Assembly (NCBI RefSeq): GCF_000745965.1
Contig: NZ_JQKI01000033.1
Span: forward strand, 1-64,000
Reading direction: 5' to 3'
Length of the DNA stretch: 64,000 bases
DNA from: Edaphobacter aggregans DSM 19364
GTDB lineage: Bacteria > Acidobacteriota > Terriglobia > Terriglobales > Acidobacteriaceae
The notes below the pieces were generated by a model that saw only the letters and a program-made list of their open reading frames with translations, ran no database searches and had not been told where the DNA came from. A program made the translations under genes and the position numbers. This document shows positions 36,147 through 57,828 of this stretch, piece after piece; positions within the stretch are counted from its first letter, which is position 1; each line of letters starts with the position of its first letter.

Positions 36147-36635
36147 TTACAAGGGAACGCTGCTGGGCCTCCAAAGCTGTGCACGTTCTTGGAGCAGGGC
36201 GTCAATTTCCTTGTCTTTAACCTCAAGGACCCCCAACGACCGCTCCAGATCGTTCGTCAGACACCACTCCATATATTTGCCAAGGCTGCCGGAATGTTTG
36301 ACGTGTAGGTAGAACGTCCCTAGCGCCGGATAGCCTGACCCTCCGGTATACCGTTCCCAAGCGGCTTTCTTGGTCATGCCAGCAAAGAGTGCCAGCCATT
36401 GGAGAAGATAGCGTTCTGTCGTCAGTTGCTGTGCTCGCTGCAAAAGCTCGTCCCTTTTCTTCTCGCGCGCCTGTTCTACTTCGATTTCCCGTTGCTTTTT
36501 CTGTTGGCATTTAGGACAGTGGATCTCAGTTGAACTCTGGGTTCGATTCCAGTCGTCCATCTCGAACGTAAATGTCTCTGTCCCTTCACCACATTCGCAG
36601 GGGGCGGTTTCGGTCCGCATGATCTCCCAACTCAT
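36147..36635 (-). CDS. Zinc-ribbon-like hypothetical protein
   Basis: About 162 residues from the ATG at 36635, which has GAGGA upstream. Four Cys in two pairs (CEC near the N-terminus and CPKC about 30 residues on) suggest a zinc ribbon. A charged coiled-coil segment (QKKQREIEVEQAREKKRDEL) and a helical C-terminus follow. The start is preceded by a copy of the dispersed cargo repeat. It lies directly before the DUF4011-helicase gene on the same strand, with about 85 bases between, so it could be an accessory subunit of that system. No known family. Confidence 0.55.
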   Translation of the reverse strand: MSWEIMRTETAPCECGEGTETFTFEMDDWNRTQSSTEIHCPKCQQKKQREIEVEQAREKKRDELLQRAQQLTTERYLLQWLALFAGMTKKAAWERYTGGSGYPALGTFYLHVKHSGSLGKYMEWCLTNDLERSLGVLEVKDKEIDALLQERAQLWRPSSVPL

Positions 36636-52809: not shown

Positions 52810-53207
52810 TGGAGGGATTTTCGTGCCGCTTCGACGTGCAGTCATTTGCGGTCTTACACCGTAGCTCTCCCGGGTTGCTCCGGACGACGGGCTATCCAGA
52901 AGTTATCCACTTGGCCTTATAACCGGCTTCTCGGAAAGGTGAAACCGAACTGCTTGAAAAGTCTGGCGGGCTCAACCGGTCGATGCAACACTGGCTTGGA
53001 GTTTACTCGCCGGAGTTTCAAAGCCCAAGATTTTTCGCGGGCGCAAAGGCGTTTGGCCTCCAGAAGCGGCTTGCGCCTCGAGCCCGTCGATAACTTAGGA
53101 GCCTAACGCATCCCGCTGGAGACCAGTTCTTATCATCTCATCTGTTCCCAACGACTGATAATTTCACAAATTCCAAATCGTCCATGGGAACGATGTCTCA
53201 GTTTTTG
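52810..53207. other. Non-coding spacer before the GntR gene
   Basis: About 400 bases. Open frames here are short and show no recognisable protein. I see no repeats or RNA structure I can name. Confidence 0.4.
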
Positions 53208-53228
53208 ACAATACGACGTTATGATATC
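53208..53228 (+). promoter_or_regulatory. GntR operator-like site, copy 1
   Basis: The core CAATACGACGTTATGATATC lies directly before the GntR start. A near-identical site (19 of 21 bases) lies at 57808-57828 upstream of a DoxX gene. A TTGACA box overlaps its left edge (53205-53210). Confidence 0.55.
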
Positions 53229-53231
53229 TTC

Positions 53232-53966
53232 ATGGCGGTCACACAGGATTCTCTTCTCTATTCACGCGTCGAAACGGTCCTCGCCTCCGAGATCAATGAT
53301 AGAGTCCTCAAGGTGGGCGACCAGCTGCCGACCGAAGACAGCCTCATTGCACGATTCGAGGTCAGCCGCATTACCGTTCGCCGCGCTATTCAGAATCTCG
53401 TGAGCCGGGGCCTCGTCGAGATTCGCCGCGGCAAAGGCACGTTCGTCGCTGCACCCAGAATCACGCAGGAGCTTACAGAGCTGAGCGGATTTGTGGAAGA
53501 TATGCACGCAGTTGGCCGCAAGCCGACCGCCCGCGTGATCAGTAAAGAGATCGTGACAGCCGATACATCTGTGGCGGGTCAGCTTGCGCTGACAAAGGGC
53601 GAGCGCGTCGTCAGAATTCGTCGCGTGCGTCTGGCGGATGGCGTCCCCCTCTCTTTCGATGAGACTTACCTTCCCCTTGAGATTGGCAAGAAGATCATCA
53701 CCAACAACTTGAAGGTCGAGCCTATCTTTTCGCTCCTGGAACGCAAATATGATGTTCCGCTGATCGAGGCCGAGTATAAGTTGGATGCCGTGGCAGCCGA
53801 GGCCGAGGTCGCGGCGGCGCTACGCGTGAAGCAAGGTAGCCCGATCTTCCGCATTGAACGAACCTCGTACTCGACAGGCAATCAGCCGGTCGATTACGAG
53901 AAGCTGTACTACCGGGGCGATCTCGTCCGCTTCGTGACACGCCTGGCCCGAAAGGTTTCGCGATGA
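53232..53966 (+). CDS. GntR/HutC-family transcription regulator
   Basis: About 244 residues from the ATG at 53232. The winged HTH (about 8-75) has GDQLPTEDSLIARFEVSRIT and RRAIQNLVSRGLVEIRRGKG. The UTRA ligand domain (about 95-235) has ERVVRIRRVRLADGVPLSFD and FRIERTSYS. HutC-type regulators usually bind sugars, histidine derivatives or fatty acids. The matching operator before itself and before the DoxX gene suggests a small regulon. Its 3' end overlaps the presumed permuted tmRNA on the opposite strand. Confidence 0.88.
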   Translation: MAVTQDSLLYSRVETVLASEINDRVLKVGDQLPTEDSLIARFEVSRITVRRAIQNLVSRGLVEIRRGKGTFVAAPRITQELTELSGFVEDMHAVGRKPTARVISKEIVTADTSVAGQLALTKGERVVRIRRVRLADGVPLSFDETYLPLEIGKKIITNNLKVEPIFSLLERKYDVPLIEAEYKLDAVAAEAEVAAALRVKQGSPIFRIERTSYSTGNQPVDYEKLYYRGDLVRFVTRLARKVSR

Positions 53967-54240
53967 ACAGCCTTCGACGGCTCATGCGGCACGGCTTCTG
54001 AAGAGGCGGTGCGAATCCGGCACGAACGGTTCACTGCTCTTTCCCCGTCGAATCCAGTTCGCGCCCACTAACCAGCACAGGGTGAAAGGACAGGGTTCCG
54101 AGTTTCCTGCCGAACCATCCCTGGCTCGGTAAGCCCCTGTGCTGGTTAGTGGGCGCGGCGGGAATCGAACCCACGTCCGCGAAATCTAAGTCCCTCGTTG
54201 GCCGCGATTGTGCGGCTTCACGAGTTGGGCGATCAGCACC
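53967..54240 (-). ncRNA. ssrA: Probable circularly permuted (two-piece) tmRNA
   Basis: Read on the minus strand, the 3' end of a tmRNA comes first. There is a GATTTCGCGGACG segment, a T arm (GTGGG, TTCGATT, CCCGC) and acceptor strand CGCGCCC with discriminator A at 54150, without an encoded CCA. After ~80 bases the 5' end of a tmRNA follows: acceptor strand GGGCGCG from 54066, then the diagnostic TGGATTCGACGGGG at 54056-54043. A perfect 22-bp helix (54061-54082 with 54135-54156) continues the acceptor stem into the intervening loop. This is the arrangement of precursors of two-piece permuted tmRNAs. I could not find a convincing tag frame or all pseudoknots. The second piece runs into the GntR 3' end, so the gene may be truncated. 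Confidence 0.6.
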
Positions 54241-54279
54241 GAGATGCTTGATGGTTGTGTTGACAAGTCTTAAGCCGTA

Positions 54280-54408
54280 GCCCTTCCTCCTCAGATAGCC
54301 ATCGATCGCCATCGGTCTCGCACCACCGATCACGAGCGCAGCGAGGCAAGCCTTTTCCGTGCCTGATTGGCAATCGATTGGCCGAACAAAGGTTGAGTGC
54401 GTCACCAC
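54280..54408 (-). pseudogene. C-terminal remnant of a DoxX gene
   Basis: The minus-strand segment CLAALVIGGARPMAIDGYL (54348-54292) matches CLAALVLGGSGPFSLDGYI, the end of the DoxX protein at 57218-57721. No membrane helices precede it. It abuts the tmRNA region and overlaps the end of the arylsulfotransferase by a few bases. Confidence 0.55.
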
Positions 54409-56270
54409 TGCACTCCTGGATAGAGGCTGGCCAGTCGCTCGCTACGGAATTGCACCGTGCCCTGGGACTGCGCCTGCCAAACCAACTCTGGAGTGGGGCC
54501 ATTCAAATTTAATTCTTGGATCTGCGAGCCGCCGGTGACCGCGGAGAAATCTGCCTTCAGGTCTCCATTTGCAAGACTTTGAACATTTCCCCCAAAATAA
54601 CTGTACAAGTTATTTGGCAATGTATAGCTCAAGACCAGAGTCGCCGTCATTGCCGTTTCGTCTATCTGGTAGACCGACGCGGCGGAGTAACAAGGTGGCG
54701 AGCCGGTGGCTCCGCAGACAATCCCGCCAGGAAATTTTCGATCGTCCCCGTTGTCCATCACGCCGAGACGAAAGAATCCGGAGTTGTTTGGGCTGAAGAA
54801 ATCGGGACCATGCTGCGCATAAAACCAATCCTTGGGATCAGTCCCTCCAATTATCTTGAAGTCTCCGCCCTCGCCCAGCCGCCACAATACCTTGCCTGAT
54901 CCCTGACCGTCTGCGTAGTCGATCTTGATGATCCAGTTTTGGTGGCGCATGGAGAGAAGCAAGCTATGGTCGTCGGTTGAGTAGAGCAACGCGTTGCTGT
55001 GAGTCCAGTCCGGAAAGAGATACGGATGCCGATTGACGTCAAGATGATCGAAGGAGTTCCAAACCCACACCGGCTGATTATTGTTATCTAAATCGATGAC
55101 GAGATCCCCCAGCACGTCTGTTGTACCCGGGTATCCGGACAGGTCATTGAAGGATTGACTCACCGATGCGAGTAGGACCCAATGTCCATTCTGCAGAGCC
55201 AGGACGTCATGGTGCAAGCTGCTGAGATTGAAGTTGTATCCTTTGGCTGACAGCGCTGCAGCTAGCTCACTCTGAGTCACCTCACGTATCGTGTTTCCTG
55301 CGAGATCCACCTCGCGCACTGCATCCACAGTATTCGGCGGAATCTGTGAGCCTTTCAAAGCGATGGACGACGCATAGGAGATCAAGATTAAAAGATGACC
55401 ATTGGGAAGCAGTTTGATCGACTGGATCGAGTCCATCTTTGTGCCGTCCGTGTAGCGATAGGTCCAAATCACATTTCCTTGTAAGTCGGTTGCGAAAGCC
55501 TGCGCACCCTCCTGTGGGATGAGCGTGTCAAACATTTCAATGCCTGCTTGCGGAATTTGCGCATTCGATGCTGACGTGGAGACAGGTGCAGTTGTGGGTG
55601 GAGTACCGGTAGTAAAAACGTGATCACGATCGGCAAATGAGGCGCCGTCATCCAATTCAACTTGAGCTCGCATGTGGTAAGGCGTCTGCGCGCGCATGCC
55701 GGCCACATAGATGATCACCTCTCCACCGTTTGGGGAAGGTGTATCTTGCACCCATGTAGTCAAGCCATAATCAGCGTCAACGCCGAAGTTAATGTTTACC
55801 TTCCCTGGTGCCGGAAGATAAATGGAGTACGCCGCCACCTGAGGATTCGAGGTCGCGGTGACGACTGCAGGACTGATGATGGAAGCAACGGCGGTTGCGT
55901 AGTCGGACTGTGGAGAGTCAGCGGCCGCGGCGGTCACCGTGACATTCATGCCGAGGGCCAGTTTCGATGGAGCCGAGTAGGTGCCGCTCGTATCTATCGT
56001 ACCGATGCTTGCATTTCCACCCGGAACTCCATTCACCAGCCATTCAAGTTGTCCGCCGCTTTGCACTGCTCCCTGAAAGTGTTGCGTTTGACCCGGCGCA
56101 ACCGCCGCGTACCGAGGAGCAATTGTGACGTTCCCGCTTTGTCCCGCAGCCGGTGGTGGTTGAGTTGGCGGAGGCTGTTGCGGCGTGGTCGCGTTTCCGT
56201 TTGTATCATGTGCTCCGCAACCGGCCACGAGCAAACATACAAGCAAGCCGAGGCAGATAGCATATTTCAC
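54402..56270 (-). CDS. Arylsulfotransferase (ASST)-like lipoprotein
   Basis: A 622-residue protein. The lipoprotein signal has lipobox LLVAGC (Cys 18), followed by a Pro-rich linker and an Ig-like domain (about 50-115). The C-terminal ASST-type propeller (about 240-620) has HHDVLALQNGHWVLL, FPDWTHSNALLY, HQNWIIKIDYADG, LWRLGEGGDF and YAQHGPDFF. ASST enzymes move sulfate between phenols. The His residues expected for catalysis appear present. It faces outward or is periplasmic. Confidence 0.75.
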   Translation of the reverse strand: MKYAICLGLLVCLLVAGCGAHDTNGNATTPQQPPPTQPPPAAGQSGNVTIAPRYAAVAPGQTQHFQGAVQSGGQLEWLVNGVPGGNASIGTIDTSGTYSAPSKLALGMNVTVTAAAADSPQSDYATAVASIISPAVVTATSNPQVAAYSIYLPAPGKVNINFGVDADYGLTTWVQDTPSPNGGEVIIYVAGMRAQTPYHMRAQVELDDGASFADRDHVFTTGTPPTTAPVSTSASNAQIPQAGIEMFDTLIPQEGAQAFATDLQGNVIWTYRYTDGTKMDSIQSIKLLPNGHLLILISYASSIALKGSQIPPNTVDAVREVDLAGNTIREVTQSELAAALSAKGYNFNLSSLHHDVLALQNGHWVLLASVSQSFNDLSGYPGTTDVLGDLVIDLDNNNQPVWVWNSFDHLDVNRHPYLFPDWTHSNALLYSTDDHSLLLSMRHQNWIIKIDYADGQGSGKVLWRLGEGGDFKIIGGTDPKDWFYAQHGPDFFSPNNSGFFRLGVMDNGDDRKFPGGIVCGATGSPPCYSAASVYQIDETAMTATLVLSYTLPNNLYSYFGGNVQSLANGDLKADFSAVTGGSQIQELNLNGPTPELVWQAQSQGTVQFRSERLASLYPGVQW

Positions 56271-56334
56271 TTAACCCCACCCATCAGAAAAGAGGTTGTG
56301 CCGGAGGTTCTGAACCGGAACTAGCTCGAACCGG

Positions 56335-57174
56335 TTAGAACCGGATGCCAAAGGTCACAGGAATGAGCTCCTGGGTGCCCGTTCCTTGCCGAGTGGTACT
56401 TGCCCTGGGTGAATCAACCCAAACGTATCGTGCTTCGCCGTATAACTTCGCCCGACTATCAGGACCAAACACCTGCCAAGTCATACCCGTGCCGATATTC
56501 AGTCCGCCCTGGTTGCTGGAGAAGTGGCCGACGGTCACATTTTGGTATTGATAACCACCATAACCGTAGTAGTAGTAGCCGGAGTATTGGAATGCTTGTG
56601 GATCTGTAAAGTTCGTCACCTTCCGATAGAAACCACCGCCGCCGGTCACGTACCCGCCCCATTTTCCCAGATGCCCATAGTGATAGATGGGATCAACTGT
56701 GAACGACCATGTATTCACATTGCCGCCGACGGCGCCCACGACGGCCAGGGTTGCCCCAGGAATCTTATTGCGGTTGAATTGGTACTCAATCAGAGTCGCA
56801 AACTTCTTGGTGAAGTTCCAGCCACCGCCAACGGTGAGATTGTAGCCGTAGGTCACGAAGGGGTGATCGTTGCCAATTGGTGCGGTGAAGCCTCCGCCCG
56901 CTTCAAACGCAACATGGCTCCAGCGATTCTCAAAAGCGGGATAGCCATTGCCAGTGTTCCGGCCATACCGTGGGACGCCACCTGAAACAGGGCCTGAGCC
57001 CGGGGAAGCTCCATCGGTGTCTTCGCCCGTCCATGTGGTCGTGTAATCTGCGGAGCTCGAATACGTTTGTGATGCAGCGGAAAGAGTTGCGCCGGTGATC
57101 AGGAACAACACAATGAGGGCCCGCTTGAGCGTGAGCCCGTGCCTTCTATGGATGGATTTTCTCGTTTCTTGCAT
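56335..57174 (-). CDS. Outer-membrane beta-barrel protein
   Basis: About 279 residues from the ATG at 57174; longer starts would overlap the DoxX gene. A signal peptide (about 18-38, ending SAASQ) is followed by Tyr/Gly-rich alternating strands and a C-terminal VTFGIRF ending in Phe, the signal for barrel insertion. The pattern resembles acidobacterial porin-like or adhesion-type outer-membrane proteins. The N-terminal coding sequence carries a 19-base direct repeat (ATGGATTTTCTCGTTTCTT, twice, near 57147-57191). No specific function can be given. Confidence 0.7.
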   Translation of the reverse strand: MQETRKSIHRRHGLTLKRALIVLFLITGATLSAASQTYSSSADYTTTWTGEDTDGASPGSGPVSGGVPRYGRNTGNGYPAFENRWSHVAFEAGGGFTAPIGNDHPFVTYGYNLTVGGGWNFTKKFATLIEYQFNRNKIPGATLAVVGAVGGNVNTWSFTVDPIYHYGHLGKWGGYVTGGGGFYRKVTNFTDPQAFQYSGYYYYGYGGYQYQNVTVGHFSSNQGGLNIGTGMTWQVFGPDSRAKLYGEARYVWVDSPRASTTRQGTGTQELIPVTFGIRF

Positions 57175-57217
57175 GGATTTTCTCGTTTCTTTGGCTAGCC
57201 TTCTGAACGCACCGCCG

Positions 57218-57721
57218 TTACTTCTGCCCACTGTTTTTCCTGTCTTTGATATACCCATCCAGCGAGAATGGACCAGAGCCACCTAAGACCAAGGCAGCGA
57301 GGCAGGCAATGTACAGAAGGTCACATTCATAGCCCGGCGGTCCAAACTGCGCGCGGCCGTTGGTCACACTCATAATCTTGATCGAGCTGAATCCATAGGG
57401 CAGATGCACGGTGATCATCGCTACGAATAAGACCGCGGCCATTGGCAGACTGGCAAGCGCCACGAATGCGCCCAGGATAACAGCGAGACCTCCGAAGATC
57501 TCGACGAGGATGGTCAACCAAGCCATCAGATGGGGCCCGGGCACGCCGATCGCGTGGAGGATACTTGCGAAAGCGTCTGGTCCCTTATTCAACTTGGCAA
57601 AACCATGTGCCATGAACCCGTACCCAACGATGAGGCGCAACGGAATAGGAGCCCAGCGGACGAACGAAACTCTGTTTCCAACGGACAATGCTTCTTCACG
57701 CGCTCGGCGCAGTGTGTTCAT
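57218..57721 (-). CDS. DoxX-family membrane protein, GntR-box gene
   Basis: About 167 residues from the ATG at 57721. Four membrane helices, with the DoxX signature (RLIVGYGFMAHGFAKLNKGP) and ILVEIFGGLAVILGAF. DoxX proteins are small membrane subunits linked to redox stress or quinone handling. A GntR-type operator lies 87-107 bases upstream of the start. A second copy of its C-terminus survives at 54292-54348. Confidence 0.85.
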   Translation of the reverse strand: MNTLRRAREEALSVGNRVSFVRWAPIPLRLIVGYGFMAHGFAKLNKGPDAFASILHAIGVPGPHLMAWLTILVEIFGGLAVILGAFVALASLPMAAVLFVAMITVHLPYGFSSIKIMSVTNGRAQFGPPGYECDLLYIACLAALVLGGSGPFSLDGYIKDRKNSGQK

Positions 57722-57807
57722 ATGCTCTTGACTCTCCCAATCATTTGATTTCGTACGTCTTGTGTCTCGGCATCGCAGGAGTTCTACTCCGTTCGTCACC
57801 GCTTTCC

Positions 57808-57828
57808 ACAATATGACGTTATAATATC
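57808..57828 (-). promoter_or_regulatory. GntR operator-like site, copy 2
   Basis: The core CAATATGACGTTATAATATC differs at two of 21 positions from the site before the GntR gene (53208-53228). It sits where the promoter of the minus-strand DoxX gene would be. Confidence 0.55.

Follow-up and report, generated by a model that had tools for sequence, protein, structure and literature searches.

Does the tmRNA-like segment on the minus strand of an Edaphobacter aggregans contig represent a working permuted ssrA gene, the remnant of one, or something else altogether? The question arises because the 3' end of the tRNA-like domain precedes its 5' end, between two genes that face each other, in a genome that already has a complete one-piece ssrA. 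The window, meaning the whole 64,000-nt stretch of DNA that was analysed, comes from a contig of 76.8 kb. The segment is likely a truncated, probably foreign fragment of a permuted ssrA that does not function in trans-translation and whose hairpin has been made a perfect palindrome.

Permuted layout and covariance-model match

Read along the minus strand from 54240 to 53980, the segment presents first a hairpin, then the GGACG typical of tmRNA with its T arm, the acceptor 3' strand, an intervening sequence (IVS), the acceptor 5' strand, and the signature TGGATTCGACGGGG. The landmarks of the permuted layout proposed in the initial annotation sit at the positions it gave. The parts are as follows:

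54194-54224, minus strand: hairpin of the acceptor piece, from folding against shuffles
54178-54184, minus strand: 3' strand of helix 2, partner 54047-54041, from the RF04321 model alignment
54158-54178, minus strand: GGACG (from 54178) and T arm (GTGGG TTCGATT CCCGC; T arm proper 54174-54158)
54150-54157, minus strand: acceptor 3' strand (54157-54151) and discriminator A73 (54150)
54067-54149, minus strand: IVS including CTA at the CCA position, 84 nt counting A73
53991-54066, minus strand: truncated 'coding piece', comprising the acceptor 5' strand (54066-54060), the D-loop-like AACTGGATTCGAC (54059-54047), and a remainder of about 56 nt without recognisable tag or structure
54043-54056, minus strand: signature TGGATTCGACGGGG

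The two acceptor strands form seven of seven pairs, and the ends of the IVS lengthen this helix by 16 perfect pairs out of 16, for a total of 23 bp (54157-54135 with 54082-54060) closed by a loop of 52 nt (54134-54083). The loop length originally reported is correct, and the perfect helix, originally put at 22 bp, is 23 bp long. The hairpin folded alone reaches -67 kcal/mol (z -10.3 against 200 shuffles). On the acceptor side, a 56-nt stretch around the acceptor-piece hairpin has z -2.67, with 3 of 200 shuffles as good. Helix 2 has five of six model pairs standard and one G-G mismatch in the RF04321 alignment. A genuinely permuted tRNA-like domain is supported. Taken by itself, the 52-nt loop is no more stable than its shuffles (z -0.82); by eye, it contains the interleaved complements CCGAG/CTCGG and CAGGG/CCCTG, a possible pseudoknot.

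The Rfam comparison suggested in the initial annotation returns tmRNA_permuted (RF04321) at 53.1 bits against a gathering score of 47 (E 1.5e-7 over the window), the sole RNA family at gathering scores in the window. The match (54188-54034) spans model positions 22-119 of 213, which correspond to the tRNA-like domain only. The beta_tmRNA model remains below its cut-off (43.4 vs 84 bits), and ARAGORN calls no tRNA or tmRNA on the window.

By itself the RF04321 score proves little, because other Acidobacteriota reach 53-72 bits where a tRNA-Asp, or in G015 a partial ssrA copy, stands ahead of an ssrA 5' end. In a phylum sample of 396 genomes (E 1e-7), 14 loci exceed the cut-off, consisting of 12 tRNA-Asp cases, G015, and the window; ARAGORN calls tRNA-Asp ahead of the ssrA 5' end in all 12 and the one-piece ssrA itself in 11. 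Two genomes pass in a class sample of 399, the window's own and G015. Among 150 relatives, 63 matched at E 1e-3 and three are above the cut-off, namely the same two and G077, whose locus is a one-piece ssrA; the 29 loci fetched from these relatives besides the window's are all one-piece ssrA. The three samples overlap. Altogether, the 41 other RF04321 loci checked in Acidobacteriota are one-piece ssrA or a tRNA ahead of an ssrA 5' end, a warning that scores above the cut-off can come from a tRNA preceding a one-piece gene. In loci L095-L106, from phylum families f36 and f61, ssrA is immediately preceded by tRNA-Val and tRNA-Asp, which produces a systematic false positive of 53-72 bits.

The window is set apart from these false positives because no adjoining tRNA or one-piece ssrA is called and because the acceptor strands and their extension match perfectly. 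A pattern search for a T arm with at most 3 mismatches and, 40-140 nt further on, TGGNTTCGAC with at most 1 mismatch gave a single match in the window and none in 100 first-order simulated windows. An ordinary tRNA T arm was rejected, since GGACG and its TGGATTCGAC partner argue for tmRNA. A remnant of island attachment was likewise rejected, as the window holds no second exact copy of the T arm; its two near-copies, each with 2 mismatches, lie on the opposite strand in surroundings that are not tRNA-like. A T-arm-like GGGTTCGATTCC at 36539-36554 on the plus strand, with no tRNA called around it, is probably due to chance.

Departures from viral permuted genes

Comparators were permuted loci from three scans of viral contigs only (IMG/VR), using a pattern that fixed the T arm, CC at positions 71-72, GG at positions 1-2, and the signature. 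The scans yielded at least 309 loci, 265 of them registered directly and 44 after a one-base shift, with 231 distinct acceptor-strand and IVS combinations. ARAGORN was run as a set on the 265 directly registered loci and called a permuted tmRNA in 255 (among the matches listed). Only its tag positions were used, because its permuted gene ends look like fixed offsets. Paraburkholderia fungorum, tried as a beta-type comparator, proved to be one-piece.

The window shares its layout, the length of its IVS, and its long helix with permuted genes, a likeness that speaks for descent from one. It differs at sites tied to function, among them the third acceptor pair, which is described as completely conserved G-U in one account of tmRNA (PMC3985003). 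G3-U70 is present in 265 of 265 directly registered and 44 of 44 shifted comparators (309 of 309 among the matches listed), whereas the window has G3 (54064) paired with C70 (54153). Two further scans of IMG/VR found no permuted gene with G3-C70 and an IVS of 46-107. At position 74, a C-A mismatch is present in 221 of 265 comparators (among the matches listed), whereas C74 of the window pairs with G. The window thus has Watson-Crick pairs at both places where the comparators keep an imperfection, the wobble at 3:70 and the mismatch of C74. Position 75 is C-G in 196 of 265 comparators (among the matches listed) and U-A in the window. Over the first 16 IVS end pairs, 224 comparators form a median of 14 and at best 15 (among the matches listed), compared to 16 of 16 in the window, and an identical acceptor stem is found in 0 of 309 (among the matches listed). 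The CCA position reads CTA (54149-54147), a weak criterion because encoded CCA is not universal among tmRNAs, as noted in one survey (PMC11915505).

In 255 comparators (among the matches listed), the tag starts 60-89 nt after TTCGAC (5-95%; median 66, range 37-172). The equivalent stretch of the window, 53987-53958, falls on the GntR stop codon (53966), and the 500 nt that follow it contain no ALAA-like tag end. The coding piece runs into the conserved GntR 3' end (up to 53966), and its fold is poor, with z +1.25 for 54046-53991 (182 of 200 shuffles at least as good) and z +0.91 for 54046-53967. Trans-translation is hardly possible, because the tag, the coding-piece fold, the encoded CCA, and G3-U70, which is read by alanyl-tRNA synthetase, are all missing.

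Probable insertion site, source, and competing readings

Three features define the locus:

53184-53966, plus strand: GntR/UTRA regulator gene, its 3' end facing the insert, conserved in G039 (87% aa)
53991-54283, minus strand: probable insert, about 271 bp beyond what G039 has; its left edge lies somewhere from 53967 to 53991
54284-54351, minus strand: remaining 3' end of a DoxX gene, a 68-bp stub 87% nt identical to the intact G039 gene adjoining GntR

G039, a member of the same genus, has GntR and DoxX genes pointing towards each other, and its DoxX frame ends 39 bp past the GntR stop. The distance from the GntR stop to the aligned DoxX stretch is 46 bp in G039 and 317 bp in the window, a difference of about 271 bp that is filled by the tmRNA-like segment. 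Since G039 is without this sequence, comparison of the two loci indicates that the segment was probably inserted in the window. A short alignment at the left edge points to native sequence up to about 53990. GntR and DoxX are also neighbours without the insert in G035 and G029 (BLAST) and G002 (read by eye), while G052 and contig C37 of the same assembly have other genes downstream of the GntR homologue. Rfam found no match on six loci with GntR homologues. The genes beyond the DoxX stub are absent beside GntR in G039. The stretch 54284-57811 is rearranged, with the DoxX stub, an arylsulfotransferase gene, an unassigned gene, and a full DoxX gene that is 90% nt identical to one on contig C37.

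The genome encodes one smpB, on contig C5. Half of what the initial annotation named as evidence against its reading, a complete ssrA elsewhere coupled with an untranscribed locus, is present: contig C7 carries a complete one-piece ssrA (172 bits, tag AEPQFALAA). This gene shares one 31-nt match with the segment, at the T arm, and otherwise chance matches of up to 15 nt. BLAST found no other copy of the segment in the assembly, giving two further matches of 22-27 nt (E 0.7).

The likely relic can be pictured as follows. A fragment of a permuted ssrA, made up of the acceptor piece, the IVS, and ~75 nt from the start of the coding piece, would have landed between convergent GntR and DoxX genes in a host whose genome already included a one-piece ssrA. 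A transcript of the fragment, if made, would adopt the precursor hairpin by which permuted genes keep their two pieces together. Once selection was gone, the functional imperfections of the hairpin (the 3:70 wobble and C-A at 74) might have been lost to give a perfect palindrome, plausibly via DNA template switching between the hairpin arms. Template switching, proposed in one report to create and repair perfect RNA stems (PMC8794818), fits the sequence of the palindrome. The U-A pair at position 75, changed on both sides relative to C-G, also suits selection for pairing, which is hinted at as an alternative to template switching. The tRNA-like helices are intact save for one G-G in helix 2, which also speaks against a relic, as an old decaying pseudogene need not be so well preserved.

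The source of the fragment is a related question. GGGC is common at the acceptor start of viral permuted genes (170 of 309 viral comparators, among the matches listed), and 46 of 48 collected signatures start GGGGGCG, compared to GGGCGCG in the window; this combination favours a foreign source. The 48 signatures derive from overlapping loci, and the two that do not start GGGGGCG come from viral contigs. Against a foreign origin, 2 of the 48 share TGGATTCGACGGG with the window. No donor with a matching segment was found: distant BLAST of 53960-54420 against phages and plasmids gave no match, and a viral scan for T arm plus acceptor gave none. A viral scan for the 5' end gave three matches, with a one-piece tmRNA called at two and none at one, and an exact-pattern scan of genome contigs for the 5' end gave four, none with a tRNA or tmRNA called and all judged coincidences. 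Because no donor and no comparator with the same acceptor stem were found, the signals are weak as well as mixed, and they suggest a foreign origin as probable. Of the truncated or transferred gene initially envisaged, truncation is favoured, and the evidence for transfer is weak.

Relatives provide pieces of similarity in place of a second copy, which was found nowhere among the Acidobacteriota sampled. BLAST against 150 relatives (E 0.01) matched 68 genomes; the non-self matches fall within query positions 54-106 of 221, the T arm/acceptor part, with the exception of one 32-nt, 84% match in G139. Eleven of the 29 fetched BLAST loci were run through ARAGORN, giving five one-piece tmRNAs, five tRNA-Arg, and one uncalled locus, L050. 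Around position 1501 of L050 (G070) lies the 3' end of a tRNA, by eye tRNA-Arg (TCT), whose whole gene ARAGORN does not call; it is possibly an island attachment fragment. BLAST against 396 phylum genomes (E 1e-6) matched five others, all at the 3' ends of one-piece tmRNA.

The strongest live alternative to a relic is a decoy, in which an expressed, tagless RNA consisting of the tRNA-like domain is the cargo of a mobile element and its elbow (D-loop-like sequence plus T arm) binds SmpB and dampens the host tmRNA. By analogy with phage RNA, this is conceivable though unlikely; that an expressed two-piece RNA without tag or alanine identity would sequester SmpB and damp host trans-translation during or after transfer, as a permuted counterpart of the DS6A RNA, is similarly a long shot. 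Model alignment and folding indicate that the tRNA-like fold and acceptor side are intact, and the features lost are exactly those for charging and tagging. A molecule similar to the RNA of mycobacteriophage DS6A inhibits tmRNA strongly, whether chargeable or not, according to one report (PMC4131195). A mobile element is also at hand: positions 4032-48375 of the window form a conjugative element with two TrwC relaxases, VirB4-like and TrbI proteins of type IV secretion, a TrwB coupling protein, a tyrosine integrase, HipA, ArdC, and ParB, together with helicase/nuclease and HEPN genes that are defence-like going by their Pfam names. The coupling protein is nearest to that of Granulicella tundricola plasmid pACIX903 (63.6% aa). 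However, ParB ends ~5.6 kb from the segment with hydrolase and regulator genes between them, no promoter- or terminator-like site was found at the segment (sigma-70 consensus only), and plasmids, phages, and relatives yielded no second copy.

A local permutation, in which an acidobacterial ssrA was duplicated in tandem and the pair lost its outer halves and then decayed, is improbable. It is retained because of the two signatures with TGGATTCGACGGG, T arms of some acidobacterial one-piece genes that resemble the segment's (89% over 38 nt), and the tandem ssrA of G015. This genome belongs to the same genus, and its tandem ssrA, with an upstream copy truncated in the T stem, indicates that ssrA duplications do occur there. 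Tandem ssrA duplication is a possible first step towards permutation. At locus L012 of G015 (minus strand, 2036-1264), the upstream copy retains its 5' end and tag region and is cut in the T stem; a short spacer and then a complete ssrA follow. A local source is at odds with the GGGCGCG start, given GGGGGCG in 46 of 48 signatures and GGGGGCGTCACGGCTTCGAC as the commonest type. The match to the genome's own ssrA, confined to 31 nt of the T arm apart from chance-level stretches, argues against it too, and the long extended helix is a trait of established permuted genes.

A further reading, which develops the new layout considered in the initial annotation, is a functional permuted tmRNA whose second piece continues antisense into GntR and whose tag, ...SRAA, ends at 53982. 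This reading is very improbable. An open Ala-Ala-stop frame, GKSSEPFVPDSHRLFRSRAA followed by a stop, does end at 53982 as first reported. That point is 65 nt after TTCGAC, so the end of the frame falls where a tag should start (comparator median 66 nt; 255 loci, among the matches listed), and the SRAA tag was rejected on these grounds. The lack of G3-U70 and of an encoded CCA, a coding-piece fold equalled or bettered by 182 of 200 shuffles, and the ssrA already in the genome weigh against it as well. The segment is probably not a working tmRNA, and this part of the initial annotation is not supported: the locus has neither the alanine identity pair nor an encoded CCA, a tag, or a structured coding piece, and a complete ssrA is present in the genome.

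Chance resemblance or an assembly chimera is scarcely credible, the former already strongly disfavoured: RF04321 false positives of like score exist and the assembly is fragmented with 7.2% contamination, but the arrangement is absent from all 100 simulated windows, no tRNA or one-piece ssrA is called adjoining the segment, and its two flanks match one and the same G039 locus of the same genus.

Relation to known tmRNA systems

Tagless tmRNAs share with the segment a tRNA-like domain without a tag frame. They include the DS6A RNA, which has the tRNA-like domain only, jakobid mitochondrial tmRNAs, and the 'permuted, no CDS' class, represented by 72 unique sequences in one survey (PMC11915505). 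Unlike these, the segment is without G3-U70, is an intergenic insert in a bacterium, and is known here from sequence alone. Were it expressed, the segment would represent a natural tmRNA decoy in a bacterium.

The ssrA fragments of genomic islands, as described in one report (PMC4131195), are similarly partial tmRNA genes in odd places. The segment differs in combining a 3' end with a 5' end, arranged in permuted order, and in being the sole exact copy of its T arm in the window.

The closest likeness is to permuted two-piece tmRNA (RF04321; RF01849 alpha, RF01850 beta, RF01851 cyano), with which the segment shares the order of acceptor piece, IVS, and 5' end, a T arm with GGACG, the TGGATTCGAC signature, the extended acceptor helix, and an IVS length in range. 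In contrast to these genes, it has CTA for CCA, no G3-U70, and no tag, its coding piece appears to break off ahead of the tag, and the genome also carries a complete one-piece ssrA. If a relic, the segment is a candidate permuted ssrA fragment in Acidobacteriota and an example of how a conserved imperfect RNA helix might become a perfect palindrome after its function is lost.
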